From positions 19,942,501-20,006,500 of the forward strand of contig NC_079886.1 of NCBI RefSeq assembly GCF_029227915.1: DNA of 64,000 nt. Direction: 5' to 3'. Source of the stretch: Hydractinia symbiolongicarpus (Eukaryota; Cnidaria; Hydrozoa; Anthoathecata; Hydractiniidae). Shown here piece by piece: positions 17,601 through 62,290 of this stretch. The first letter of the stretch is position 1; each line of letters begins with the position of its first letter. The translations under genes were made by a program, and so were the position numbers. The notes beneath the pieces were generated by a model. That model did not search any database, was not told the origin of the DNA, and worked only from the letters and a program-made list of their open reading frames with translations.

Positions 17601-19427
17601 TGATAATTGTGTTGTTTGATCAAGTGTGTTTGCTTGCATATCCTGTTCATTCATTTCAATCCTGAGAAGAAAAACATTAAACGCAGGGATTAGCGGTTAA
17701 TAAAACGACACCAGACTGCAAAACAAAGTCGATGTATTTTTACAATCATATTACGCAAACAATTTAAACGAAATCAATCTTTTTATTACTTTGTGAAAAA
17801 ACAGAATTTAAAGGTTTTGAAAGTCGAGAGATTTTAGCGTAGTTTCCTGTTTTTATTTTTTGTAATTCTTTAAACTTGAAGAAGTAGATATTTGTATCGG
17901 TGACTTTACACTCGCTTCCGTACATGTTTTTTCTTTGTCAAAAATATTTTCTTTTAAAACTCTTTCTTCTGATGTGGTTAATCCAGAAAGAGTCAGGAAA
18001 ACAGTTGCTGGGTCAGCACAAAATGAGCAGAAAAACAAATAAATTTAGAGCAATGTTATTGTATGTTCTGTTTCTTCTTTTAATTGGAAATAAAAATAAA
18101 AGATTTGGTGATCAAATATTTTTAATTCCTAATGGTTGCATTCCTTTCAAAATGACTGCCAACCATTTTTATGATAAGGATGCACGAAATATATCCGTCA
18201 GCCGAAAGCCCTTGTTTACTTTTTGATGGGTTAATAATCCTAAATATCATACTGGGAACTGAAAATGACAAAAAAGTTCCCTGCATATATTGGATTGACC
18301 ATTTTAGTGGTCGGTTTATTACACGCCCTTCTTCGGATGCGCGTATTTTTTTATTATTATTATTATTTCGAATAAAGGATAAGTATAATCAATTTACAAG
18401 AAATTGATTTTCATATACGTCCTATAAGAATAAGTTAAAAAAAATTAGCATGCAAGGCATTTGGAGAAAAAGCATCATATGATAGAATATGGAAAGTTGT
18501 TGCTGTTCTCCATGCACCCTGCAATGTATTTATATTTTATTTATAAAGTTAAAAATGTTAAAATCTAAAAATCCTATGTATTCTGAACCTCAAAAGTAAA
18601 ACAAAATTCAAATATAGAGAAGAAGCTAAGTATAAATTCAATTTAAAAATTTGAAAAAATAAAAAAAATAAAAAAATAGAGGAACTAGAAAAAATGAAGA
18701 AGTAAAAGAGATCAGACAAGAGACAACAAAAAGGCTTGTAAAAAGAAAAATGTTTTAACTAAAAGAAGTGCTTCTTGCACAAGGCGTTAAACTTGCTAAA
18801 CGAGTCACACTTCCTGATATCTAGTGGAAGTGAATTATATAATTTTGGACCAAAAAAATAGAAACCAGCTTTCGTACATTCCAATTTTACCATAGGTTGA
18901 GTTATCATATAACCATATAACCAACGATTAACAAGCGATTAACAACATATATACGACGACCAAAAAGGGTCTTTACGCACATGCGATGAAACCTAATCCA
19001 TTATATTATGTTTTTTTTAGATAAGCTGAAGGTTGGTTGTAAAAAAGTAGTTATGAAGCGCTATGTAGGCAGTAAAAACAGAGGGTGCAGAAGCAAAAAA
19101 CCGATCAAAGTTGCTAAATGTGTTGGATTTTGTTTGCCACCATGGAAACTTGCTCAACCGTTCCAAAACTTTGACAGAGTAATCAAGAAAAACCGGTACA
19201 AGTATAGATGTGTCCCTAATCGATATAAATACAAAAAAATTATGGTATACTGTGCCGACGATGGAACTGAAGTGAAATATCGAGCAAAAATCATAAAGAA
19301 CTGTGTGTGTAAACTATACACACCGCAGCAAAATGAAGTACTGACACCTAAAGAGAAGTTCTTAGAAAAAAAGAAATACAACAACCAGCAAGAACAAGCT
19401 GCTGATATAGGAAAAAGAAATCGTTAA
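11685..19427 (+). CDS. Sclerostin/SOSTDC1-like secreted cystine-knot protein
   Basis: Two exons, 11685-11877 and 19021-19427, joined by a phase-1 intron (donor G|GTAAGT, acceptor TTTTTTTTAG|AT) that creates an Asp codon at residue 65. The product is 199 residues, close to sclerostin and SOSTDC1 (about 206-213). Residues 1-21 are a signal peptide (hydrophobic, ending VNA). There is a glycosylation sequon at Asn42 and a dibasic site at 36-37. Exon 2 carries a C-terminal cystine knot with Cys at 71, 87, 98, 102, 128, 142, 159 and 161. The spacings 11, 4, 26, 14, 17 and 2 fit the sclerostin family closely. Landmarks are GCRSKKPIK, YRCVPNRY and CVCKLY, followed by a basic tail. Family members bind BMPs and/or LRP5/6 outside the cell and inhibit those pathways. 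The PNxI motif of loop 2 that vertebrate members use to bind LRP5/6 is absent. The two-exon layout also matches vertebrate SOST. The family call is firm; the exact partner is inference. Confidence 0.9.
11878..19020 (+). other. 7.1-kb intron of the sclerostin-like gene
   Basis: Starts GTAAGT and ends in a T-rich tract plus AG. It is AT-rich and holds a decayed Helitron-like tail near 14300-14600 (hairpin relic 'cccgtgaacaaatccactt' and the TGACGTCA-type body). Open frames inside (for example 13405-13638 minus, 17900-18407 plus) show no domain and are treated as chance. Confidence 0.8.
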
Positions 19428-33033: not shown

Positions 33034-33041
33034 TATAAATA
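33034..33041 (+). promoter_or_regulatory. TATA box of hedgehog-like gene 1
   Basis: TATAAATA lies 92 bases before the start codon at 33126, predicting a transcription start near 33065 and a short leader. Confidence 0.6.
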
Positions 33042-33125: not shown

Positions 33126-34980
33126 ATGTTTATCGAGATTTTCTCTTTGTTATTTGCCTTGGTATCTTTACCGAACATAATTTTATCGCTTGAAATACAC
33201 CATTTAAATTTTACTCGATTACCTGATTTCAACGAGCAAAGTATTCTTGCAAGTGGACCGTTCATACAATCAGCAAATACAACTGACTTGCGAAGGGTTA
33301 CGTCAAATGATTTTTTGGAGGTGTATAATAACAAGACTATCCTAACAACAAAGGTAAGTAAGTGTGGGAACTGTTAGCCACAACTGTAATTATAGTCACT
33401 GTCGATATTGAGAAACACATACGGCTGTACGAAAAAAAATCGATAATCTTTTACCTGCTATTGTTTTAAGCTTCTTATAACTTCGCTCCATCCTTTTATT
33501 AAAATTTATATCTTAGATGCATATCAAGAGAGTGACGCCCATGACGGAGATATCACTTAAACCGTTTTGTAGCCCCTTTAAGCCAATCATCGATCCTCGC
33601 AAATAATTCCCCGCAGTTATAACAACCACCCATTATCTCGAACTTTCAACATTTTCAGTGTTTCAACTTCCATTTCTAAAACATTTTTTAATGTTAATTC
33701 CAATTCCTTCTTATTAAATGTAACGACCAAAATTAATTTTCATTTCTTAAAGAAGAACGCCACGCTTTTCTTAATCACAGAAAAAAATATCGTTTTCCAT
33801 TTTGGTTTATTGAGAAAAAATAGTTTCAGCATTACTCGTTTTTTTTCTTGGTGTGTGTATATCTTCACCTTTAAAACGTTAAAATTGCGAAAATCAGTTA
33901 AATTTTCAGTGAAAATTGCAAACTATTTTGTTATCACCAGTACATGCTGCTTGTTCTCATCACTTCCATGAAAAATATTAGTAATATTAGTAATTTTGGC
34001 AATGAAAAAGGCATACAAGTCCCTTGTACTTAAAATTGTTCTTGGCAAACAAAAATCTATTCTTTGAATTCTTTTTGTTCAAGTAAAGAATTAGAGTTAT
34101 CCGAAGAATTTAGGCTAAGGGTGACGAAAAATGGGTCGAGTATAAAATGTAAATAATAATAATGAACGTAAATTCTTCGGTATACGAGCAGAAATAATTT
34201 CGTTTTAATAATTAAAGTTCTCTGACATGTTTTTTTCGGAAAAATAAATTATGAGAACTAGTCGTTAGCCCGTGGAAAATTCACGGGTTCGCCCGTCCTT
34301 TTTATACCGCATTGCGTGCTTCTCACTATTGCGCAGCTAAGCTACCATTTTGCGTGACAGACGGACAGACGTATACGGGTATTATAATATAGACTAGTCG
34401 TTAACCCGTGGAAAAATCCATGGGGTCGCCCGTCCTTTATATATACCGCATTTCGTATGTCTCGCTACTTGAGGTGCCATCTTGCGCAGAGACAGACAGA
34501 CGACGGCTATTATTATAGAGATATTTTTATTTAATTCGTCTCTAACGTCTCTAACTTCCAACACTTGCAAAAAGTAGAAATAAAATGTAAGTCTGGTAGT
34601 GTTTCTGGTTTTCTAAACATTTCACAAATTAATCTTTAGTTTTTTGCCTTTCGTAGGTATGCTTAAGAAAACTTGAAAATTTGGTTCGCGTAGTTGAAAC
34701 AAAATTTCATCAGAAGTATACGTTACTGCTGTTAGCTGGATACACAAGTATAAAATGGATCTATCTTCCTGATCACTCGTTACATTACGAAGGAAGAGCA
34801 TTGGATTTAACGGTAAAGAAAAGGTCTTCGAGCAACACTAAGGGTGATGACAATGCAAAGATTGATAGAATTCATCATCGACTTGCATGGTTTGCATACA
34901 AGAAATCAGGTTTTAACTTTGTTAAAGTGTTACAGAATCATTATGGCGAACACGTGCATGTATCTTGCAGAAGAGAGTAG
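33126..34980 (+). CDS. Stand-alone Hedgehog signalling-domain protein, gene 1
   Basis: Exons 33126-33353 and 34657-34980 are joined by a phase-0 intron (AAG|GTAAGT; TTCGTAG|GT). The product is 183 residues: a signal peptide (about 1-21), then a Hedgehog N-terminal domain ending at the stop codon. Landmarks: FTRLPDFNEQSILASG (28-44), matching the 'IPN..E..L.ASG' start of Hedgehog; SLHYEGRALD (117-126), the family signature; and GFNFV...GEHVHVSC at the end. The zinc ligands of the fold are present: His119, Asp126 and His177. Missing are the N-terminal palmitoylated Cys (CGPGR), the acidic calcium-binding residues, the Glu of the pseudo-active site, and the whole Hint domain with its cholesterol-transfer Gly-Cys-Phe. 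It should therefore be secreted without lipid. Paralogous to gene 2, 11 kb downstream on the same strand. Orthology to canonical hedgehog is uncertain; receptor binding is untested. Confidence 0.88.
34258..34393 (-). mobile_element. Mini-Helitron in the hedgehog-like gene 1 intron, copy 1
   Basis: On the minus strand it starts TCTATATTATAATACCCG (34393) and ends with hairpin CCCGTGAATTTTCCACGGG, a short spacer and CTAG (34261-34258), preceded on the + strand by an A. 136 bp, no coding. It abuts the next copy with no intervening base. Confidence 0.75.
34394..34521 (-). mobile_element. Mini-Helitron in the hedgehog-like gene 1 intron, copy 2
   Basis: On the minus strand it starts TCTCTATAATAATAGCCG (34521) and ends with hairpin CCATGGATTTTTCCACGGG, spacer and CTAG (34397-34394). 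128 bp, closely related to copy 1 ('gggtcgcccgtccttt', 'ataccgcattt'). The 5' end of one copy directly follows the 3' end of the other: a head-to-tail pair. Confidence 0.75.
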
Positions 34981-35372
34981 AAGTGATATTGTAAACATTG
35001 CATTTCTTCACTGTAGACATTTCAATTTTTTCGTAAACATTTTTTTCGCAACAACTTACATGAGTAGCTTACATAGATGAGTTATATGCTCAATACCCAA
35101 TAGATTAACGGTATATTTTCTGTAATCGAATATGGCAACTTTGAGCGTTGATCTATATGTGTTATTAAAAAAGTTGTCTTAAAAGTCCTCGCTTAACATC
35201 GATAGTTTTTTTATCTCGGCTGCGTAAAATATATATGTCAACTTAAAGTAAGTCTTAAGCAGAGAACAAAAAACTTGATTAACATTACATGCATAATGAT
35301 TGACAGAAGTTCTGCATAAAAAGAGTGCACGAGTTTTCTCGTATTAAGCAATCATTTAGTCCAATGAAGACT

Positions 35373-35460
35373 AATGGCTGATAAACCCTTTAGGGCGTTC
35401 AAACAACTGAGGTTGCTGTTTTTCCACGTAGCGCCCTGCTGAACGGTTTAGAAGCCATTT
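35373..35460. repeat. 88-base imperfect hairpin
   Basis: Left arm from 35373 (AATGGCTGATAAACCCTTTA then GGGCG) pairs with right arm ending 35459 (cgccctgctgaacggttta then gaagccatt). The arms are about 27 bases with a few bulges around a loop of about 30 bases. The size resembles a microRNA precursor, but it could equally be a small foldback element; no conserved mature sequence is recognised. Confidence 0.45.
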
Positions 35461-37835
35461 AGTGTTTGGTAGATTGATAAAAACATATGAACTAAAGTAA
35501 TCCATAGCCAAAAGAGATTTTAAGTCACAAAAACATTAGTATTTGAATAAAAAATAAAATACAACATGCAAAAGAAAATGTAGAGATATCACGTGAACTT
35601 GTTTGTCAAGAAAGAGTTGATGATGATTCGGGAGTGGTGTTTAGTGGATTTATTTTATTTTTGTCTGAACTCAGGATTGGAGATAATTGCCACGGTGAGT
35701 TTTGTTACCTGTTTGTAGATTTAGAGAATGTATACATTTTTATGTACACTATGTTGCGCGCGTATAGTTCTGGAATATTGGCATCTAACAGTCTCCCAAT
35801 GGATGTCTTTCTTGCTGAATGATTTACTTCTTTTCTTTCGACACCATATCTATTAGTTTAAAACTCATTTTAGAACTTAGATTTTGTGTAGACATTTTAC
35901 AGCGTTCAAATTTTACGACAGATGTTAACTATTTTTTTTGTTTGTGTTTTTACAATTTAACTGATAGCGCCCGATCACGTGATCGATAATAAGCCAATAA
36001 AATCTAAAAAGCAAGTGTCAGCAATACACATATTATTTTTGTCATGGCACAGAAACATCAATGAAACATTTTTAGCTATTCATGTAACGGTTATATTATT
36101 TTATTATTCTGACTTTTTTCAGTATGATGCCACAAAATCCATTTCGTTGTGTTCAGGTATGGTCAATAAAGGTCAAATCTTCACTACTCTGCAGCCGGTA
36201 GGCTACGACGTCTCTACATTGGCGAAAACGTGGGCCAGGTCCAAAGTGTTTCGAATTCGCTAGTGGTATTCCCCGGCGATTCTGCACAACGAAATAATTT
36301 TTTGGTTGGAATAAATATTTGCGCTGACGTCAGCAACAATTACCAAATTTCAAGAGAATAAATTAAACCAAATAACATAAAATCTGAAATGCTAAGTCCG
36401 CTGTGATAAAACTGAAAAGTGAAATGTCACAAATTCAAAATGCGGGACTGCAATATAGAAACAGTCTGTTTAGACACTTGTAGCAGTGAACTTCGAAATT
36501 AGATGTCCAGTTTCATTATATTTTGTCCATAATGGTAGGTGCTCATATTCTAACCAATTTAATTTAGAGTGGAGGAGAGTAACGCTAATTTAACATTGTT
36601 TTATTTATTTCAACTTTAGTACTTAAAGAGATGCAAGCTAAGAATTTAGGAAATGTTTTTCCCTATTTCAAGAAGATATGAAAATTTTTATTCCCGTTAC
36701 AAAAGTGTTCCTTCCTAAATCTTAAGGGTTTGTAAAATTAGTTTATATTGATCTGTTGCAGCAATAACATTGATCTGATATGAGATTTTAGAGCTCTTTC
36801 ATTTGTTTGCCTTAAACATAGGCGTAAATCTATTTATCTATCTTTAAACGTATATAGGCGTGTATTTATCTATAGTGTAGCTATGGCTATTATTGAAATG
36901 TGTGACCTCGTAATTGGAATCATGATGTTTCATTGTTAGAAAATAAAATACAAAATAAAAACATCATAAGTGCATAGCTTACTTAGTTCTTAATTAGCGA
37001 TTTCATGACCTTTCCCATAATACACATTAACAAAAAGACAAGTATATAACTACCTATTCGACTAATTAAATGTGCTGAATGAGATAGTTTTTATAGCTAG
37101 CTAGCCAACATCAAAGGTGCCATAAATACACACTTTAAATACACATTCAATAAATATTCATAATTCTTGTCACACTACCGCTACTAATATCCTCTATATA
37201 TATTATCCACAACGATTCTTCCAATATGGCAGTCAAAAATTATAAAACTAAATTTGTTAATAACTAAGGTCAGAACAGCAAGTGTAAACAACTTGGCATC
37301 CTGAAATTTATCTAAACTAACCTCGTTTTCTTGCAATGTTTTCATATTGCCACCACGGCTGATCATGAAAGGCAATATTGAAAAAAGACTTATTAAAGTT
37401 TTCTGAATTGCGCAGAATTCAAGAATGTTCGCAACAAATAATGTACATTTTATATCAGGTATTGAATATATAGCAAAATTGCTAGTTTTAGAATTCTTTA
37501 AAGGTAACAATATGTTTATGTTTCATGTACTAATACTGTTAAAATCGACAATTCATTTTACTTTGTTACAACAAATGACTCAACTTCTGTTTAAAATGGC
37601 AGCCGAGTCGCTATTTTGGTTCTAAGGATGCACCAAATATTGTTACCTGTAATGTATAGTATGTAGAGAAAAATGTATCTACTACAACAAGTAAAAAGCA
37701 AAGATGAAATGGAGGCAAGCGTTAAAGTAAAAGTAGCAACTTTTTCCTCTTCTGATAATTAGATGTTGGATTCATTTCGTTAGGTTCGATAAAACTTTAC
37801 CACAACTTTTATAAATGAAAACTTTTTTGCTACTC

Positions 37836-38037
37836 TCGTTAAGTGGGACCCCGAAAAAGTAGGACACCCGCTATATAGAACCTTTTCTTTCCGTCCCTCA
37901 AACTTCCTTACCCTTTTCAAGCAAAAACTTCGCTTAAGTGAGGCTCCGGATAAGTAAGATGCCGCTAAGTAGTCCATTTTTTCTTCGTCCCTTGAAGCAA
38001 AAACTTTACTTAAGTGGGACATTTATTGGAATGGCTT
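37836..38037. repeat. Degenerate pogo-like terminal block
   Basis: Repeated phrases 'cgttaagtgggacccc', 'agtaggacacccgcta', 'cttaagtgaggctccgg' and 'cttaagtgggac' resemble the multi-copy terminal blocks of cnidarian pogo-type elements. A matching opposite end was not found, so the limits are uncertain. Confidence 0.35.
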
Positions 38038-39789
38038 CATATTTTTCCGAGGTTGAAGAAATTGCATGATTCCAAAGAAATTTTTTGAAATTTTTGTATT
38101 GTTTGGGAGTGCTTGCAATATTATGTCTTTATCGACGTATTTGCTGAAGGTATTGCATTTTTGAGGCGGATTATTTTTTGTTTTTAATATTTGAAAGTTG
38201 CTGACAGTAATGTAAAATTGTTATAAAATGTTTTATTGGTTATACATATCGATCACATGTATTTTGGTTACCAAGTGGTTACTTTATTGTGTTAAATAAT
38301 CTCAAAATCTTGAAAAAGTAAAAAAAATTTTTGTAGCTGGGTCATCTGTACTGTTTATATTACTTTGGTTTATTAGTCATGAAGAGCGTTGTCATTTTTT
38401 CAATTCAACGGCGACGATGTTAAATCCGACATTAAATTAATCTCTTTTCTTGAAAGGTTAGGTTTTAAAAATTTGACAAAAAATGTTTATTAGCAGTAAA
38501 AGTGATTTTCTTTCCAACCAATAGAAGTTCTAGGAAGCATTCTTCTTTAAGTCAGGGCTATTTCTTGTCAAAGTACACATGCTTCACATTGTCAAATTTC
38601 ACATGCGCCATTTTGAAAAATTTTAAGTAACTGGTATTTTATTACTAAGGTCCCTTACAAAAACGTTTCGAGTTACAATTCGCATTGTCTTGTCACTGAC
38701 TGGACGGAATACCTGAGAATACTCTGGAACACTGGGACAAAATGAGCCGTACACGCTATACTTAGGGTGAAGTATGTGTACAAAGAAAATAATACTAGTA
38801 TGAAGTATAGGACGCTCCACAGATACTGTATTAATTGAAAATAAAAACACTGCTACCAAGTTGCAGATTTCGAAATTCTTAAACACACATGAGCATTTAC
38901 AATAGATAAATTAGATGAAGGTGAATAAAGTCAGCAGAAAAAGGAGTTAGTGAAACAATAGCTTAATGAAAATTTGACATTGTAAATGAGAAACAATAAT
39001 TAAAATTCTCGAAACATAATTTTTTTTGTTCTCTTGGGTCAAATGTCTTATCCCGATATTTTATCGTTTCCAATGGCAGAATGGCTCTAATACTTGTAGA
39101 TATGACAATGAAGATTTCATAACTCCCCGCCCCCGCTAATCCCCCCTTCTCCAAGATACTTCCCCTACATAGTTTTCCCTGCTAATTACCACTAAATACT
39201 GTCTGTATATTATCTGATTCACCTTCTTTTAGAAGAATTAATGCAGATGTATTATTGGGTTACATTATTACGTTAACTGAATAATTGAGAAGTGTAAAAA
39301 AGCCATCAAACTAAGCTTTCGTAAAGCTGTTCACAGCTCCTTCTTTATAACACAAGTTTCGGGAAATGTAGATTACAAATTATATCCATGTATTTTTAGT
39401 GTTTTCTATATGATGCCTTTTACACCGCGTAATGAAATTGAAGAAAGGTCTTAAATTTCGTACAGTCCTACATGTTTTTTCCGCAAAACGCAAATTTTTT
39501 GGAAATTTTATACTGTTCCATCTGTGAAATTAAACCTCCATTCAAAGCACAGGATTATTTTTCTGTCAAAATTTTAAATGTTAAATTTCGACACGTACAA
39601 AGAAAAAGGTTTTGGTGTTCGTTAGAATTGTTGCATAGGTTATCCAGAAGGCAAAGTAAATTATTTAAGCAATAAACTCTTTTTATGAATTTGCTAACAG
39701 TTTTGATTTTTTAAATTTTTGTTGAGTAGCCGAGAGGTTTTTAGTCAAAGATGAGTTTTAAAAATGTCCCGCTGCTATGACAACCATAA

Positions 39790-40310
39790 GGAGCAAGGTT
39801 AAAATACCTTTCAGAACTATAGATATTGACTATAAAATTACTCAAAATTAATCCTAATAATCTCTATGAAATTCTTATAATTGCAAAAGTTTAATAGCTT
39901 TAGAATTATTCCTTAGAACATGAAGCTAACTGCACAACTTTATGTCATCAAGAGGGCACATTCTGTTAAATTTAGACACGTGATTAATCCGAGTTCCCAT
40001 TTTTTCGTATGTTACCAAAGAAATGGGAAAAATTAGATTTTCGAGCAATTTTTACCTCTTTTCATGCGAATTAAAAACGGAACAATATGTTATATAACAT
40101 TTATTTATTACATGAGTTCACTCTATAACTAAAGTTATTAAATTTAAAACAAATAGTGTCATTTTGAAAAAATATCAAGCTCCCAATGTCATCACAGAAA
40201 CGTGCTGGTATAAGCAAAAAATTATAGCTGCCAGTTTATTCCCTTCTTAACGTAAAGTATACGGAATCTAATCCAATTTGCACAAGCCTATCAAAAGTTA
40301 TGAATAAACG
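39790..40310 (-). repeat. Dispersed repeat C, minus copy
   Basis: Reverse-orientation, diverged copy of the 3990-4580 repeat. Aligned landmarks (on the + strand here) include 'tagacacgtgattaatccg', 'ataatctctatgaaattctt' and 'acaagcctatcaaaagttat'. It lacks the G/C-tract end and stops where a LINE fragment begins. Confidence 0.6.
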
Positions 40311-40321
40311 TCATCATTGGC

Positions 40322-41250
40322 AAAAATAAAAGACTGGGTCTTAGCTCAAGTAATAAATACTTAGGTGTTAAACTCGACCAAAATCTGACATAGGGTGATC
40401 AAATTATGAATATTTCGGTTAAAATTAGGAGAGTTAATGGTGCGCTTTCTAAACTCAGCCACTATATTCCTCAACCCATCTTATCACTATCTATCATGCC
40501 ATTTTCAACTCCCACTTAAGGTATTTATGTAACTATGGGATCAGTACGATTTTACATATTCTCACCGTATTCTAATTCTTCAGAAATGTGCTCTTAGAAT
40601 AACTTCATTTTCTGAACCTAGGCCTCCTTCATCTCCAATATTTGTAAGGTTTGGAGTACTCCAAATGTTTGACCTTGTTAGTTCTAAATATTATTTTTGT
40701 TCACCAGTTTAACTCTAAACTTCCAACTGACCTTCATAATACTTTAAATTTCACAAAGATTAACAACATTTATAGTACCCGAAATAAAGCCTTGGGTATA
40801 TTAAAAATTCCAAAAGTTAACTCTAAATTCTATGGTAGTAATTCACTGTGTGCGCAGTCAATCTCTCAGTGAAACTTGTTCAGAAACTCTGCCCCAACTC
40901 CCAATTATCAAATCTTACACTATGTAAATTGAAGTCCCTGGTTACATCCTACTTTCTCTACAAGTACACATATAATTATAATACTGACTAAATCCTCATT
41001 CAATACTTTCTATTAAAATGGTGGCCTATATTATTTTTATGGCTATGTTGTTTTCAAAAAACATTTTGTTTTTCTCCCCAGTAACGTTTATTTTATTTAT
41101 TTTTCTGTTTATTGTTGTTTTTTCTTGTGTTAATGGTGGCCATCCCACTGTTTAGTTTTTAACTATTGGGATGGTCTCCTTGTCAATTAGATTAATTTTT
41201 TGTTGTAATTCTTGGCTTTTTTGACAGAATAAAGATATCTATCTTGGCAA
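40322..41250 (+). pseudogene. LINE fragment: 3' end of a non-LTR reverse transcriptase ORF plus 3' UTR
   Basis: Across many frame shifts the + strand reads SNKYLGVKLDQNL, KIRRVNGALSKLSHYIP, ILQKCALRITSFSEP, KLPTDLHNTLNFTKINN, STRNKALGILKIPKVNSKFY and AQSISQ. This is the C-terminal segment that follows the polymerase core in CR1/L2/Jockey-like non-LTR elements. The tail 'gaataaagatatctatct' (about 41227-41244) looks like a LINE 3' end. Truncated at the 5' side, as is usual for LINE insertions, and long dead. It is a different family from the LINE at 54.6-57.8 kb. Confidence 0.8.
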
Positions 41251-41500
41251 GATTTATTGCATATGACCTAATACAAATGAAATAATGGCGGCTTGAAATT
41301 TCTTGCAATGATTCGTCTATTTACAATCTTTTTCAAAAATTTATTGCAACAACTGCGTAATCCAAAAGTCTCTTTAATAACATTCGTATTCTGTCTGTCT
41401 GCTTGTGCACGAAATAAACATTGTGCGCGGAAGCACAAGATATGCGATATCTGAAGGACGGGCAACTCCTAGATCTTTCCTCAGGATACCAGCTAGTTAA

Positions 41501-41563
41501 TTTATATTGGTCCAACGAGTTTATTTATATTAGTCCAACGAGTTTATTAATATTAGTCCAACG
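41501..41563. repeat. Three tandem units of 19-23 bp
   Basis: Units share 'atattagtccaacgag' (first unit 'atattggtccaacgag') separated by 'tttatt'. A short local tandem duplication with few changes. Confidence 0.8.
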
Positions 41564-42672
41564 TACCTGATTACTAAGGTAAACTTGCGACCTTGAACTG
41601 TGTTATTTCATGCTAACGTTACAATTTTTAGAATTTGACACAATTGTAGTACGACATAAAGGGAATAAATAAGCTATTATTACTTCAGTACTACAGCCGT
41701 CATCAATAATTTAAAATCGAAGAAAGCATTATTGACTAAGAAAATTGTGTTTGACAATGTTCTGAGCAATATTTAGCCGTTCTATTTTAATTTCATGTTA
41801 TTACTAAATGGTTTAATAAATATATTTTTTTGGTTTTTGCACATAAGAAAGGAGAAGTATTGGAAAAGTCCTAAAAAGTCGTGAAAAACGATAAAAACGA
41901 ATTTGACAGCTAGCAAAACTAGATTAACCTCAGGCACTTTATGCTCCCCCCCCCCCTTCATCCCATATTGGGTTAAAGTAATTTTTCCATCCAATTTTAA
42001 TCCATCCAGGTCCGTAGCAAGTAAGGATTTAAAGGGTTTTTAAATATCTCATTAACCCGCCAGTTTCTTGACTAGTAAATTGACCAGCTTTTTGGGAAAT
42101 TCCTTAATTCTGCTCTCAGGTGATCTCTTGTTACCAACGCAAAAGAAGACTTATTTTCACTCGTGTCCAAATTAACCTTAGATATATGTGACATACTATG
42201 ATAACCCTGTATCTGTCTTAACGTTATAAATATTATCAAGTACGCCATACCAGAGAATTTTCGCCTCAACATCGAAAGCCAATATAAACAATGTAGAAAT
42301 GTTAGTGTGTCACTCATTTCTTTGTATTTAGCATCTTAAAATAGTCAGAATATTAGAATTCATTAGCAAAACATTTAAAAATTCTGCAAATAGGCCTGCG
42401 CTACAATGATTTATGTAAATTTACGTCAAATCTGCATTTCTTAAAATCAAGGCATTACATATGACAAATGTAGCTGCAAATACATTAACCTTTATAACCA
42501 TTCAATCCAAACTGCTTCTAGAATGTAAATGGTGTTTAACTTTAACACAAGCTTCCACGCTATAGCAGAAAAAGCATTTTATTTAACTGTATATTTGCCC
42601 TTCGTAACTGTGAATATTGCAACAAATTTTAACGCCGTTGTTAACCCTATTTTTTAGGGCTCCTAAATGCTT

Positions 42673-42712
42673 GGGGGTGGGGGGGGGGGTGATTCGACCC
42701 CCCCCCCCCCCC
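42673..42712. repeat. G-run/C-run hairpin
   Basis: GGGGG-T-G11 (42673-42689) is followed by TGATTCGA and a run of 15 C (42698-42712). It can form a very GC-rich hairpin or a G-quadruplex. The surrounding 42637-42860 resembles the start of repeat C, which also has a G-run/C-run block. Confidence 0.85.
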
Positions 42713-44494
42713 TGCGTAATTTCTACAAATGTTGTCCGATGGACTTGAAATTTACCACAAGTGTTGGCCAGGTATAAGTACAGTAAAAAATTTTTTGATG
42801 ACGTCGGCATTTTAGGTGACGACGTCATGAATTTCAATAACATATAGAAAAATAGCAATAATGATAATAGGAACTGTAGATAATATAACAATATAAACAG
42901 AAGTCACATAAAGCTTTTAAAAACATGTAAAATATTTCAACATATCCTTCTTGTCAGCTACAAATATTATAATGTACTGATGTTATATTTCTTAATCTGA
43001 AACTTCTCTTGTTGATCCAATAAGATATTATTCATGAACGTCTCCAAAAGATTATCATGGCTTTGCCACATAACCGTAACGGATTTTTAGGAGATATAAT
43101 TTAGTAATCCAGTTATGGTTATTGTTTTGCAATGTTGATAACGCAATGATTTTATTTCAAAAACATTACTGCAGGACTGCACTTACCTTGTTACAAGAAA
43201 TTAACGAATCATTAACGCGGTTGGCCACCTAACGGCGTTCATTTTATGCCGTGCTAATTTCATATCCGCGTTATTTAAGTGATACACTAATTTCTATCTG
43301 TGTTAATTTTCTGAACGTTAATTTTGTGTAAAAAGTGTAAAAAAAATTGAAGTTTTTAACAAGGAAAAGAATGTTTAAAAAGGTATTTAATAAGAACAAA
43401 TGTTTCTTTTTACGTTTTGTTTGATAATTATTGTACATCTAGTTCTACCATCACTCTCCTCGCTCTCGTTTGCTGGAGTTTTAACGATTTTTTTTAGAAT
43501 TTCCGTTAAATCGTGTGAATATTAGAGAAAATAGCAGAAACTGAATAAGAAATACTTGATTTTTTTTGAAAATTATTTCATGACTACATTAATTTCATGC
43601 GAACGAAAAGTAATTTTTTTGGAAAACCGCCTTAATTTTATGCTCCAGTATTGCGTATTTTTAAAAAACCTCGTTAGTTTTCTGCGCGTTAATTTTCTGA
43701 GTTGTTAATAAAGTTGTTTCACTGTAATAAGGTATTTCACGAAATATGTTGCAAACACTTCTTTCGTTTTCAAAATTATGACATGAGTTTTAAATCATAC
43801 CAAAATAAAATATCTACCTTATCCATAGCATATTCTCATTTTTAGTTTCCTAGTAAATCTGAGCCAGCATGTGTTTGTGTGCGCTATGTTTTGTTATATA
43901 AAAAAATGGTGTTGCCTTTATTTAGAAGAAAAATACATAAATAACTGTTTGGACAGTAAATATAAAACCCCTTTGTTCTGATATACATTAATAAATATTT
44001 TTGTATAAATAAAGAATAATCCGACATGTATTGTCGATTGTGATATGCATTAATGGACAGCTGGCTATCAAATCCATACCTCTACTTTTCATGCAACCAT
44101 GTAGGTACATTTTCGTACGTTTGATTATTCGGATTATCGTTGTCATGAAAGAGTCTTTAATTTATTATTGTATTGAGCAATACAGAATAAAGTAAGGTAG
44201 GTACATAAGAGGATTAGTGAAAGCATCCTAGGAGTAATTTAAATCATCTTAAAAAACTGCATTGTCCATTAGAGGTATTTCGCAATTTTACCTATTGGAA
44301 TTTTCTTAGAAAGTAGGCACATAAAGAAGTGACAACTAATATGATAGCTACCTTAAGTACATTATTGATAAGGAGAATATAGCGAAAAAAAGGTGGTTAT
44401 GCCTATTAAAGATCTTTTGATTTTCGTTCAACGGAGTAGATTCACTTTTTCTAGATGCTTATCTTATCGCTTAGCAACATTACTTGCAGTACAC

Positions 44495-44502
44495 TATATA
44501 AG
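44495..44502 (+). promoter_or_regulatory. TATA box of hedgehog-like gene 2
   Basis: TATATAAG lies 54 bases before the start codon at 44549, predicting transcription from about 44525 and a very short leader. Confidence 0.6.
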
Positions 44503-44548
44503 ATGCAAATTTAAAATAAAAATTATTCTTTGATTTGTAAAAAAAAAT

Positions 44549-45286
44549 ATGATGGGATTGGGTAGTGCTAAAGTGTCTCAGATGATTTTTCTTTTAGTAA
44601 CGGTATTGACTATATATGTTGCTGCAAAGCCAGTAGAGGATGGCAAATTCACAAGATTACCAAATGTAAACGAACAAAGTATTTTAGCTAGCGGACCGTT
44701 TATTGACAAAGCAACAAAAGAGGGTCTATCTCAGATAACACCGCAATACCTTCTAGCTACGCATAACAACAACAGCATGTTTGTAACGAAGGTATCATTT
44801 TTGTCTTATACTTCTTTATAGTTAAAATGGTAGGAAGAATGTCTGCTTAATTAACAAAAAAAGCTATTGGCATAAATGAAAAAATGATGATTTTATGAAG
44901 AAAGCAAATTCTACGGTATTTCTTACGCACTCTTAACCATCTCTTTCTTATTTTAGAGTTGTTATACGAAACTGCAAAAACTATTAGAGCTCACAAACAA
45001 ACAATGGAAGGATGTGTATACGCTAAAAGTTTTTAGAGCGTTTCAGGCAATTAAATTAGTTTCGCTGTCTCAAACGTCTCTGCATTACGAAGGAAGAGCG
45101 TTAGATGTAGCGTTACGCCGCAATAAACTGGACGACGTTTCTACAGATGCGTGGACAAGGACGGATAAATACAAAAACCTAATACAAAAACTTGGTAGAA
45201 AAGCATACGATGAAGCTAAGTTCAGTTTTGTGAGTATAACAACAGGAGTTCATGGAGAACATTTGCACCTTTCATGCAAGAGATAA
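44549..45286 (+). CDS. Stand-alone Hedgehog signalling-domain protein, gene 2
   Basis: Exons 44549-44791 and 44957-45286 are joined by a 165-bp phase-0 intron (AAG|GTATCA; CTTATTTTAG|AG). The product is 190 residues with a signal peptide (about 1-26). The Hedgehog N-terminal domain aligns along its full length: FTRLPNVNEQSILASG (34-49) and LSQITPQY (60-67) match the 'IPNVAEK.L.ASG' and 'ELTPNY' segments of vertebrate Hedgehog; the intron follows VTK; then SCYTKL (82-87), SLHYEGRALD (122-131) and GEHLHLSCKR at the C-terminus. Zinc ligands His124, Asp131 and His185 are kept. Cys83 and Cys188 are shared with gene 1. There is no N-terminal CGPGR, no Hint domain and no acidic calcium cluster. The next codon after the domain is the stop, so this is not a truncated sequence of a longer gene. 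A start at Met2 or Met12 would also be possible; Met1 gives the best signal peptide with the TATA box. Confidence 0.9.
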
Positions 45287-54641: not shown

Positions 54642-57600
54642 GACAAGATGGCGGAACGTGCGGTCACTGGCTTGTGGCTGACAGTTTTTATTTTCATAGT
54701 TTGGCTTACGGTTTTCCGAGTGAGTAAAAAGAATTTTTGTACAAACGATGGTGTTAGTATTACGATGAATGCAGAGGATGAGCAGGAGAACTTTGCTTTT
54801 TCATCTTTATTTACACAGAAGAAAAATTATTCGAAACCGAGATCGTTGTTACACATTTTGTTGATCTTATGTGGAGATGTGGAGACATGTCCTGGTCCTA
54901 ATCCATGTATGGAGAATTTGACAAAGAAAAAAGAATACGCATATTTCATCAAAATATCAGAGGTTTATTACAAAGTTTTCAAAAAATCCAATCGTTTTTT
55001 GGTTTGTATAAAAACGTAAATTTATTAGCACTATCCGAAACACATATTCATTCTCATAGTTTTAACGATGACGATAGTTTGTATCAAATTCTGGGGTACA
55101 AGTTCATTAAAAAGAACAGAACAAATGGTACCCACGGTGGTGTTGCCACGTATATATCAGATAAAATCAGTTGGAAAAGAAGAAAAGACCTTGAAAGAGT
55201 TGAAGTTGAAGGTATCATTATAGAAATATTTCAGAAAAAGTCAAAAAGTTTCTTACTTGGGAGTTTTTACAGACCCCCGGATGGGTCAAATTATCTTCAC
55301 GCACATTTTAACAACATTTTCGATGATATGTTAACTCTCATTAACAGTAGAAATCTTGAGACAATAATCCTCGGGGACTTCAATGTTAACTACGGAAATA
55401 AAAATGTATGCAGAGAATTAAAAGACTTTATTACTTTGCACGGTTTTGTTCAATTGATAACTAAACCAACTCGAGTGACTGAAGATACAAGTACTGTAAT
55501 TGATATTATTTTAACTAACAACAAAAGTTTAATATCTACGGTTGATGTATGTAGCACCATTAGATTTCAGCGATCATGACATGATAGGATGCGTGCGTAA
55601 AATGAATCATGTTAAATGTCAATTCAAAACTATTACATGTCGTAATTATTCAAAATACAACAAATCGCATATGTGCCGTGATCTTAAATCGGAAGAGTGG
55701 AATGCACTTTATGATATGACTGATTTCAAAGATATTATATCAACGGTATATAATAAGCATGCTCCCAAGATAACTAAACGAGTAAAGGAAAGACATTGTC
55801 CATGGCTCACACAGGAAGTAAAAGGGCAGATTAATCATAAAGATCAATTGTTACGCAAAGCGCGAAGATCTAAAAATAAAAACGACTGGACTTCAAAGTG
55901 TACATCCAAAAAGAACTGAAATCGTTAAAGCGTAACAAAGCAACTGGGTTTGATGATTTACCTCCTAACTTGATAAAGGACAGTGCCGAGATGATTTCAA
56001 AACCAATGGCATTTATTGTAAATCTTTCTTTAAAGACCGGAGTTATGCCAACTGAATGGAAATTTGCTTTGATCAAACCTCTTCACAAATCTGGAGAACG
56101 AGCAAATCCTGATAATTACCGCCCTATTTCAATACTGCCTGTGCTGTCCAAAATTATGGAAAAAGCTGTCCACAATCAATTGAGTGAATATTTAGAATCC
56201 AACAATTTACTGTCAGAGAAGCAATTTGGCTACCGTAAAAAGAGATCGACCGAGCTTGCAACAACATTATTGTTAGATGATATAAGAAAAGCTGCAGACA
56301 AAGGAAAAATTACTGGCACGATATTCATTGACTTATCGAAAGCTTTCGATACCCTTGGGCACGCAACCCTTCTAGCAAAGTTAAAACAATATGGGGTAAG
56401 CAATATCACAGGTTTGAGAGCTATTTGTTTGACAGAAACAAATTGTTGGTTTTGACGATGAGTTATCCGATCCTTATCCGGTTTTGTGTGGGGTGCCACA
56501 AGGTTCTATCCTTGGACCTCTACTGTTTTTAGTTTTCTTTAACGATTTTCCGGACATTCTGAAAACAGCTGACGTTGTGGAATTCGCTGATGATACTGTT
56601 ATCTACGTTTCTTCAAACAAGATTTCTGAGATAGAAGAATTGTTGAATAATGATTTAAAGAACATCAGCTCATACTTTCGAGAAAACGAACTTGTAATTA
56701 ATTTAAAACCTGGAAAGACTGACTGCGTGCTATTTGGGACAGCAAAAAGATTATCAATGTCAAAGACTGACTTTACATTGCTTTTTGACGGAGTACCAAT
56801 CAATGTGACTACATCTTATAAATATCTTGGTACAGTACTCGATCACACTCTTAATATTGGTCCGCAATTTGATAGTATGTACAAAAAGTTCTCGTCAAAG
56901 TTAAGGTTGTTGTGTAAACTCAAGTATTTCTTGAACGAAGAAGCTATCAGACGTGTTTATCAATCTATCATACAATCTGTTATTCGATATAATTGCTTGT
57001 CATTTTTAAACTTAACAGCAACACAATCACAAAAATTACGATCGTTGGATAGACGCAATAACGATAACAAAAGATGTGCGAGTATCGACACATCAGACAT
57101 GATTAAAAAACATGCTGTAAAATTGGTAAAAAAATGTTTGGATGGTGATTGTTGCTCGAATTTTGATAATTATTTTACTTTAAACTCCCATAATTTATCA
57201 ACTAGAAATCAAAATGTTCTTTTAAAAATTCCTAAAATAAAACTTGAGTTTGCTCGGTCGGGTTTCTTCTTTCAAGGAGCTAGGCTTTTCAACTCCTTGC
57301 CCAAGGAGATCCGGCAGAGTGGACATGAGTTTAGTAAAAATTTACTAAATTTTAGATTTTAGTTTTTTTTAATTTTAGAGTTTAGATAATTTCTTTGAGT
57401 ATTTTTCATACTTTTCGAGATAGTTCGCCGAATTTTTAGTTTTTGGTTATATTGATTTATTTGTGTGATTGTGTGTATGTGTAAACTAGTTTTTGTTTCT
57501 TTTCGATGGCAACTACTTCTTTCCTGCCACTGTTTCTTTTGGTCGTTACTTTTCGAACGTTTAGGCTAATTTTTGCGTTTTCCATGAGTTTTTGAGTTTT

Positions 57601-59639: not shown

Positions 59640-60094
59640 TTCATTTCAGGCTTTCCTTTCGTCTCTTCAGGTGCCAAATAAGATCCAGCAACAAAGCCTT
59701 CATCACGTGGGTAAATGCTTGGATGTATCACTGTTTCAAAAATGTTAATAAGTTTTTTGTTTTTAAATGTGCAGGGCATGTAATTGTTACTGTACAGGGA
59801 ATTTCAAGTCCACTTTGCACCAGTGGTGAAACACAGTAATTAGAAGAACTCAGACTCGCCATGAGCTTTGCTCCACGGTCAAGTAAAAACTTCGTCACTC
59901 GAGAATATTCCATTGGCAAATGCCCAACTGTTTGTCCTGTCGTAGTTTTGCTACGACTTTATGGCAAAAAAGTCGAAAGGGTTGTCCCTTTCGTGCATAC
60001 AATCGAGTTCTTCTCCCACAAACGGCTGCCAATATTTGCGATAGAAATGATACCCTCTCACAGCAGATGAATATTCGTAGATTTTCTCACCCAT
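59640..60094 (-). pseudogene. HIRAN-like protein gene of the pogo element, broken
   Basis: From an ATG at 60094 the minus strand reads MGEKIYEYSSAVRGYHFYRK, then YWQPFVGEELDCMHERDNPF; then a stop and frame change near 59950, then VGHLPMEYSRVTKFLLDRGA, and further GLEIPCTVTITCP. The order matches HIRAN-like proteins: W-P-GE-L-C..E..N..D..A, GH-P, V.FLL.RGA, GLEIPC. HIRAN domains in HLTF/Rad5 recognise 3' ends of DNA; a role at transposon ends is speculation. Downstream translation in another frame (KLINIFETVIHPSIY...) probably continues the protein to about 59640. It lies head to head with the transposase gene, so the two may once have shared a promoter region. Confidence 0.7.
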
Positions 60095-60830: not shown

Positions 60831-62290
60831 ATGGAATACACTGTGGTAGAAGCTGCTTATCAAGAGAAGAAACTCAGAAAAAAGCGTGTACAATTTACGG
60901 AGGAAGAACGTTTCGAAATTGGAAAGTTCGCAGCCATTAACGGAGCAACAAAAGCTGTTAAACAGTTTAAAAACACGCACAAACATTTAGATTTCGGTGA
61001 AAGTACCGCCCAAAAACCTAAAGCTCGCTACGAACAGTTTACTAGAAAAAGAAGAACGTGGAAGGCCTCTAAATGTTGGGAGCACTAGATGAAAAAGTGA
61101 GAACATTTTTACTTAAGTTGAGAAAAAAGGGTGGTGTAGTGAATACTGTAGTTGCAATTACTACAGCAAAAGCCTTAATTGAAAGGAGTGACAACGAACA
61201 CCTTAAATCAATCGATCTTGATTCAACATCATGGGCTAAGAGTTTATTCATACAGATGGGTTTCTGTTCACGTGCATGTACCACCTCAAAACCAGAAATC
61301 ACGGAGTTGGCCAAAGAAGAAGCAAAGTGATTGTTTCAGCATCAAGTATTGAGTTTAGTCGAAAACCATGTAGTTCCTCATTCACTAATCATGAACTTTG
61401 ACCAAACTCCCGTTAAGTATGCTGTAGTACAAAGTCGCACATTAGATATCGGAGGTACTTAAAAACAAGCCATCGCTGCCACCTTTGGTATTACATTTAG
61501 CAATGGTTTCTTGCCAATGCCGCTGATTTATGGCGAGAAGACGGAAAGAAGCATACCAACATTTTTGTTTCCAAAGAGCTTTGCTCTCAGTGCCAACCCG
61601 AAACACTTCAGCAACACAGAAGAACGTTAAAACTCATTGATGGCATCATACTAACAGATATCCAGCAGGAACTCAAAAAATTACAACTTGGAAATGACCA
61701 TCCTGCATTGTTGATCTATGATGTGTTCTCAGGACAAATAACACGTGCCGTACTTGAAAAATTGCAAGAAAGCAATATCCATTTTGTTCGTGTCCCTCCG
61801 AACATGACTAATTTGTTTCAACCACCCGACCTCGAAGTTAATGGTGCTGCGAAAGCCTACATGAAGCGACGGTTCACTGAGTGGTATAGTAAAGATTTTT
61901 GGAGAGAACTTGAGGCTGGACGAAATTGACATCAAACTTACACTTACGATGCTAAAACCTCTACACTCACGCTGGCTTGTGGATCTTTACGACTACCTCA
62001 CTTCATCTAAGGGAGCAGAATTAATATCAAATGGTTGGCAGGCTTCGGGAATTACTGAACTACTCGTTAAAGGGTCTTAGGGTGTCGAAAGCCTTGACCC
62101 GTTTGCTTTTGTGGATCCTTTAGAAACGGATGATTCCTTTCCAGATAAAAGGGATATACGAGCTAGCAAAGAGGATATTTCTCGCTTGGTTAGACAAAAG
62201 CATATGTTAGAAGATTCTGATGACGAGTGGGAGCATGAAGATAGAACCGATTTTACAAATATTTTCGACATCTTAGATTATAAACTCTAA
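60831..62290 (+). pseudogene. pogo-type transposase, broken
   Basis: ATG at 60831 begins MEYTVVEAAYQEKK and a basic helix-turn-helix region (VQFTEEERFEIGKFAAINGA). After a frame change come GRP and LRKKGGVVNTVVAITTAKAL, a CENPB/Tc5-type DNA-binding region with SWAKSLF..MGF. The DDE_1 catalytic domain has the acidic residues in MNFDQTP (Asp at 61400-61402), LIYDVFSGQIT (Asp at 61720-61722) and LFQPPDLEVN (Asp at 61828-61830), the DDD arrangement usual for pogo. The C-terminal part ends acidic (LEDSDDEWEHED). Stops near 61330 and 61462, and frame changes near 61060, 61630 and 61925 make it inactive. Confidence 0.88.

Follow-up and report, generated by a model that had tools for sequence, protein, structure and literature searches.

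Two genes in a 64,000-nucleotide stretch of the Hydractinia symbiolongicarpus genome (contig NC_079886.1, here chromosome C12, forward-strand positions 19,942,501 to 20,006,500; the whole stretch is called the window below) can be identified with high confidence as hedgehog paralogues that lack a Hint domain and encode secreted-type single N-domains. Hedgehog is known as a morphogen that carries two lipids; its zinc site is under dispute, being seen either as a pseudo-active site or as that of a peptidase. The two genes, here gene 1 and gene 2, belong to a predicted Hint-less and unlipidated Hedgehog family, spread along one hydrozoan chromosome, which is real and goes beyond the earlier observation of two genes. 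Because phylogenetic trees join the Hint-less genes with the canonical hh of the same genome, and the first intron is common to both, we place them by sequence in the hh lineage, as paralogues that have multiplied on hh's own chromosome.

Structure and domain identity of the two genes

Gene 1 occupies positions 33126-34980 of the window (+) and gene 2 positions 44549-45286 (+), each with two exons. In gene 1, exon 1 (33126..33353) encodes the signal peptide and the first half of the Hedgehog N-domain (RLPDFNEQSILASGPF) and ends in AAG, followed by the donor GTAAGT; a phase-0 intron (33354..34656) at the position of canonical hh intron 1 separates it from exon 2 (34657..34980), which encodes the second half of the domain, from SLHYEGRALD to GEHVHVSCRRE, and then a stop codon. 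Gene 2 is built in the same way, with exon 1 at 44549..44791 (signal peptide and first half of the domain; AAG followed by the donor GTATCA, which fits the consensus poorly), a phase-0 intron at 44792..44956 placed as in gene 1, and exon 2 at 44957..45286 (second half, from SLHYEGRALD to GEHLHLSCKR, then stop). A TATA-like element lies upstream of each, at 33034..33040 (+; TATAWAW, 92 bases 5' of the ATG) for gene 1 and at 44495..44501 (+; 54 bases 5' of the ATG) for gene 2. The first-pass annotation of this DNA had described two two-exon plus-strand genes, each giving a signal peptide and a Hedgehog N-domain that ends at the stop codon after 183 and 190 residues, and this description stands.

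Profile searches and structure prediction, both of which the first-pass annotation had proposed, bear out its view of the products as stand-alone, secreted-type, single-domain Hedgehog relatives. Pfam HH_signal scores 32.1 and 41.7 bits for the gene 1 and gene 2 products, respectively, against a curated cut-off of 22.1, and exceeds this cut-off in all five further Hint-less family members tried. The predicted folds of both products match structures of the Hedgehog N-domain (HhN). M15 Pfam models had no match listed for either product up to E 10, and Peptidase_M15_3 reached 12.9 and 15.2 bits in two paralogues, below its cut-off of 23.2.

Nothing beyond one Hedgehog N-domain is encoded in either product. 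Downstream of the two genes within the window, no Hint was found at E<=0.01 and no VWA or cadherin domain was found; a downstream exon of any of these kinds was rejected as a candidate, the families listed there being reverse transcriptase, endonuclease and a DDE transposase below cut-off. Within 60 bases of the end of exon 2, neither gene has a GT that fits more than 4/7 donor positions, which is weak evidence given that the exon-1 donor of gene 2 itself fits just 4/7. A candidate third copy at 59683-59733 (+), SLHHVGKCLDVSL, briefly resembles SLHYEGRALDV (E 0.031); it was not accepted, and chance or an ancient remnant is the probable explanation. Short repeat copies also sit within gene 1's intron (34257-34471, +); they have 80-90% matches at 19.2235 and 19.2265 Mb on C12 and matches of approximately 81% within the hh locus.

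A Hint-less family on chromosome C12

A genome search with gene 1 (E<=10) returned 29 exon matches, and every one of them lies on C12. These comprise 14 exon-2 and 15 exon-1 matches and amount to 13 Hint-less exon-2 loci and canonical hh, along with two lone exon-1 fragments at 19.204 and 24.930 Mb; the locus counts rest on this search with gene 1, in which the best candidates were scored, and are lower bounds. The two window genes are thus two members of a larger set, consistent with the earlier claim that they represent a family. Ten Hint-less genes could be modelled intact: those at 6.95, 18.13, 18.24, 19.21, 19.23 (minus) and 19.23 (plus) Mb, gene 1, gene 2, and those at 23.13 and 24.93 Mb. 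All ten have two exons, GT-AG introns and a phase-0 intron placed as hh intron 1, and in all ten the stop codon follows 2-12 residues past the last conserved Ser-Cys.

Divergence within the family ranges widely. Gene 1 and the copy at 19.216 Mb form a young pair with 92% identity, around whose exons two blocks of 391 and 575 bases can be aligned (91.6% and 77.4%), and subfamilies are 37-45% identical to one another. Pairwise dN/dS, 0.22 in the young pair, is 0.32 and 0.25 in the pairs that come next in closeness; the rest are mostly near saturation, and 8/21 pairs gave no dS. The Hint-less genes are, by these estimates, under purifying selection.

The TATAWAW motif occurs 54-111 bases before the ATG in 7/7 Hint-less genes and also upstream of two of three further genes (9/10 overall), whereas no TATA-like element is present within 130 bases upstream of canonical hh. 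TATAWAW is also present in 16% of 130-base stretches drawn at random from the window, and with genes that share ancestry the trials are not independent. The presence of these elements in the copies but not in hh suggests a different regulation.

One family member is already represented in public data. P0001, named 'tiggy-winkle hedgehog protein-like' by NCBI (Hydractinia symbiolongicarpus, 165 amino acids), is letter for letter part of our model at C12:19231351-19232040 (+) and is a member of the Hint-less family; it carries the hedgehog label although no Hint follows. The public model begins 22 residues after the in-frame Met of the new one, and hence is without a signal peptide. Six more relatives, all fragments, are P0002-P0007; two of them, P0002 and P0003, show 91% and 84% identity to gene 2, respectively.

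The canonical hh gene and the ancestry of the family

A Hint profile search of the genome gave one match, at C12:19837092-19837691 on the minus strand, inside canonical hh. On the same strand, exon 1 of hh (C12 19839606-19839331) encodes the signal peptide and CGPGRG, and exon 2 (C12 19838870-19838556) runs seven residues past Ser-Cys to a splice donor, GTAAGC; the acceptor of the Hint exon was placed by inference from the sequence. The predicted HhN-Hint protein scores 51.1 bits with HH_signal and 147.2 bits with Hint, and aligns with Drosophila Hedgehog over residues 20-407 of 410 (E 4.1e-34). An early idea, that the genome is without a canonical hh, was rejected when the gene, overlooked by the HH_signal search, was found beside the Hint match. 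On the opposite strand to hh, gene 1 is 136 kb away from exon 1 of that gene, and the distance to the far end of the Hint match is 138.5 kb. Since the sole Hint match found sits in canonical hh, on the other strand, cis-splicing of gene 1 or gene 2 to a Hint exon appears unlikely.

Canonical hh has peculiarities of its own. In its model (C12:19837092-19839606, minus; L044, L045), Asn replaces the zinc-binding Asp and Arg precedes the Hint cysteine. On this model, hh is an unusual Hedgehog ligand in itself.

Phylogenetic analyses unite the Hint-less genes with hh. In a tree of 10 bacterial rows (10 of the 23 Hedgehog-like loci found), SHH, Hedgling, hh and seven Hint-less genes, hh and the Hint-less genes join with support of 100/99, and the seven Hint-less genes alone with 85/93; in a second tree, where SHH and Hedgling are the only outside sequences, hh and ten Hint-less genes unite at 100/100. 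The SILASGPF and HxSC signatures are common to all ten modelled genes and hh. In this respect the first-pass annotation needs correction: it had taken the two genes for a family separate from Hedgehog, and the two trees, the common first intron and the two signatures make them paralogues of the animal's own hh instead.

The other HH_signal gene of the genome is a Hedgling on C14, in which VWA, cadherin and Ig domains follow the Hh domain and the intron sits inside the HYEGRA motif, between HYEG and RA, unlike in hh and the Hint-less genes. Membership of the Hint-less genes in Hedgling was rejected on these differences in intron position and downstream domains. A bacterial origin was likewise rejected, the tree setting the Hint-less genes apart from the 10 bacterial rows.

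Residues lost and kept

We compared the Hint-less proteins with sites of SHH, given throughout in human numbering. No Cys is aligned with the palmitoylated C24 in 7/7 Hint-less genes, and no Cys stands between signal peptide and domain in any of the ten modelled genes. The gene 1 and gene 2 proteins have two Cys each, both within the domain; this pair, equivalent to C102 and position 185, is present in all ten Hint-less genes and hh and probably forms a disulfide. The six calcium ligands, which we take to be E89, E90, D95, E126, D129 and D131, are kept in 0/6 cases in gene 1 and in gene 2, and canonical hh keeps 1/6. H134 and E176, the usual catalytic glutamate, are missing from hh as well as from 7/7 Hint-less genes.

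All ten modelled genes, in turn, keep the zinc triad (H-x6-D and H; H140, D147 and H182), whose Asp is replaced by Asn in hh (H, N, H) and by Ile in Hedgling (H, I, H). Three residues ahead of the zinc His, nine of the ten also carry a Glu (ExxH), a candidate catalytic residue by its place in the sequence, and this Glu is commoner among them than the first His of HxH (7/10).

Other features of the window

A 145-residue open frame at 18990-19424 (+) matches Pfam Sclerostin (1.2e-13) and DAN (9e-9) and resembles a cystine-knot BMP antagonist. Pieces of endonuclease and reverse transcriptase in several frames make up a LINE-type element at 54902-57359 (+), and at 61501-61926 (+) lies a DDE_1 transposase piece (22.5 bits against a cut-off of 22).

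Discussion

The Hint-less genes share with canonical Hedgehog, as seen in Hydractinia hh, the signal peptide, HH_signal, the position and phase of the first intron, SILASGPF, HxSC and the Cys pair. Unlike them, hh has CGPGRG and Hint, has Asn for the zinc Asp and lacks a TATA-like element in the nearest 130 bases; on each of these points the Hint-less genes are the opposite, save for one gene that also is without such an element within that distance. Hedgling resembles them in having HhN without Hint, but differs in intron position, in the VWA, cadherin and Ig domains after HhN and in Ile for the zinc Asp. Bacterial Hedgehog-like DD-peptidases (bacHh) have the zinc triad, and many of them end directly past HxHxSV, but they differ in having E176 in 10/10 rows compared, in largely keeping the calcium ligands and in standing apart in the tree. 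The HhN-like proteins that we found in Kiritimatiellia, Lentisphaerae, Verrucomicrobia and related metagenome-assembled genomes (L008-L021) are distinct from the Shh-like bacterial proteins; they mostly have HKEGR, HREGR or similar for HYEGR, and several have a longer loop before HxH.

According to PMC8052667, matrix association of mouse Shh requires E177 and the zinc site, and many bacHh terminate where exon 2 of Hh genes terminates. The paper also names Hedglets, Hh-related proteins of molluscs, echinoderms and cephalochordates, and considers them plausibly Hh-derived, which likens them to the Hint-less genes. It places the Hedgling Hh domain in one large exon, unlike the Hydractinia Hedgling, whose Hh domain is split by an intron, as PMC2362128 has it for Nematostella. 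That paper further describes an HhN-VWA gene in Nematostella and, in Hydra, two Hog genes with upstream regions unlike those of any other cnidarian Hog protein, and PMC6027127 makes the case for an Hh/DD-peptidase family. According to PMC4072882, a hedgehog transcript with a Hint module occurs in the Hydractinia gonozooid, and this is probably the canonical hh found in this genome; PMC12239608 counts Hedgehog genes without domain detail, three for Hydra and two for Bougainvillia. In the open-licence PMC literature we found no publication on Hint-less hydrozoan hedgehogs, which is not proof of absence.

As for function, we tentatively propose, at somewhat less than even confidence, that the Hint-less proteins modulate or compete with canonical Hh; identity and role taken as one whole statement we consider evenly poised. 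Having neither a palmitoylation Cys nor a Hint of their own, the proteins would carry no palmitate and no cholesterol and would be freely diffusing zinc-cleft proteins. They may attach to matrix or to surface proteins of the Hedgehog pathway and not switch the receptor on, with the outcome that they would serve as soluble modulators or competitors of canonical Hh, and the copies would have diversified through birth and death. The zinc cleft is where ShhN is contacted by Patched and Hedgehog-interacting protein (Hhip), and what goes into Patched is the palmitate of the N-terminal cysteine; because an unpalmitoylated ligand could make the former contact and cannot insert lipid, modulator action appears to be the most likely role. 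The strongest hint is the triad, intact in the copies and altered in hh, which would mean that selection keeps the cleft and not lipid-borne signalling.

The genes may instead encode secreted zinc effectors outside the Hedgehog pathway (in matrix, gut or antimicrobial roles, with or without peptidase activity) that are merely descended from hh. We consider this rather unlikely, as none of the 7 genes compared retains H134 or E176 of the Shh site and the M15 models stay below cut-off in two paralogues and without a match for gene 1 or gene 2; yet the divergence of the subfamilies, the degenerate copies and the TATA-like promoters fit an effector family equally well. A role as independent signalling ligands, that is, Hint-less and unlipidated Hedgehogs that activate Patched at long range, is improbable. 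The predicted retention of the HhN fold would suit such ligands, as would 15 Patched-family exon matches in the genome (not resolved to Patched proper), but the N-terminal cysteine is lacking and unlipidated Hedgehog is a weak agonist in the animals studied. We give a similarly low probability to a more elaborate scheme in which the jobs of Hedgehog have been split: the lipidated hh would keep CGPGRG and Hint minus the zinc site and the unlipidated copies would keep zinc, a longer loop before the zinc site having given them the ExxH Glu as in VanX/VanY, so that the copies would be putative secreted zinc peptidases, a Hedgehog domain turned enzyme again.

Two further explanations are less probable still. 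That they are truncated, non-functional copies of hh, or genes with an overlooked Hint exon, is very doubtful, for ten open genes with GT-AG introns, dN/dS of 0.22-0.32 in the least saturated pairs, the single Hint match in the genome and, more weakly, the want of a good donor late in exon 2 stand against the degenerate look of 3/13 Hint-less exon-2 loci and the fact that the HH_signal search passed over several true exons, so that a divergent Hint could escape. Recent lateral transfer of a bacHh peptidase would account for proteins that are Hint-less and end near the same place, as many bacHh do, but it is hardly credible for genes that are spliced, with the intron of hh, that group with Hydractinia hh away from the 10 bacterial rows (100/99), and that lack the E176 of all these rows and most calcium ligands.

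Several observations, along with the equally good fit of an effector family, count against the reading of the genes as hh-derived modulators. The loss of E176 and the single calcium ligand in hh itself make these losses not specific to the copies. Taken on its own, gene 1 has only weak sequence similarity to solved Hedgehogs, and the frames of three loci (17.548, 24.936 and 24.944 Mb) are broken or incomplete and look degenerate. In the second tree the Hint-less clade has support of 29/34, with a long-branch warning; monophyly of the Hint-less genes is thus uncertain, and the Hint-less state may have arisen more than once. The Hint search scored one candidate, such that a divergent Hint exon could escape it, and an earlier genome search with HH_signal gave only four C12 loci, overlooking canonical hh and several copies.

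An hh with an altered zinc site beside ten triad-intact Hint-less copies constitutes a natural experiment that parts lipidation from the zinc cleft, and makes the function of the zinc site testable in a tractable laboratory animal. It also shows that the Hedgehog N-domain is able to last and to multiply in the absence of Hint, a point relevant to how evolution built Hedgehog up or dismantled it.

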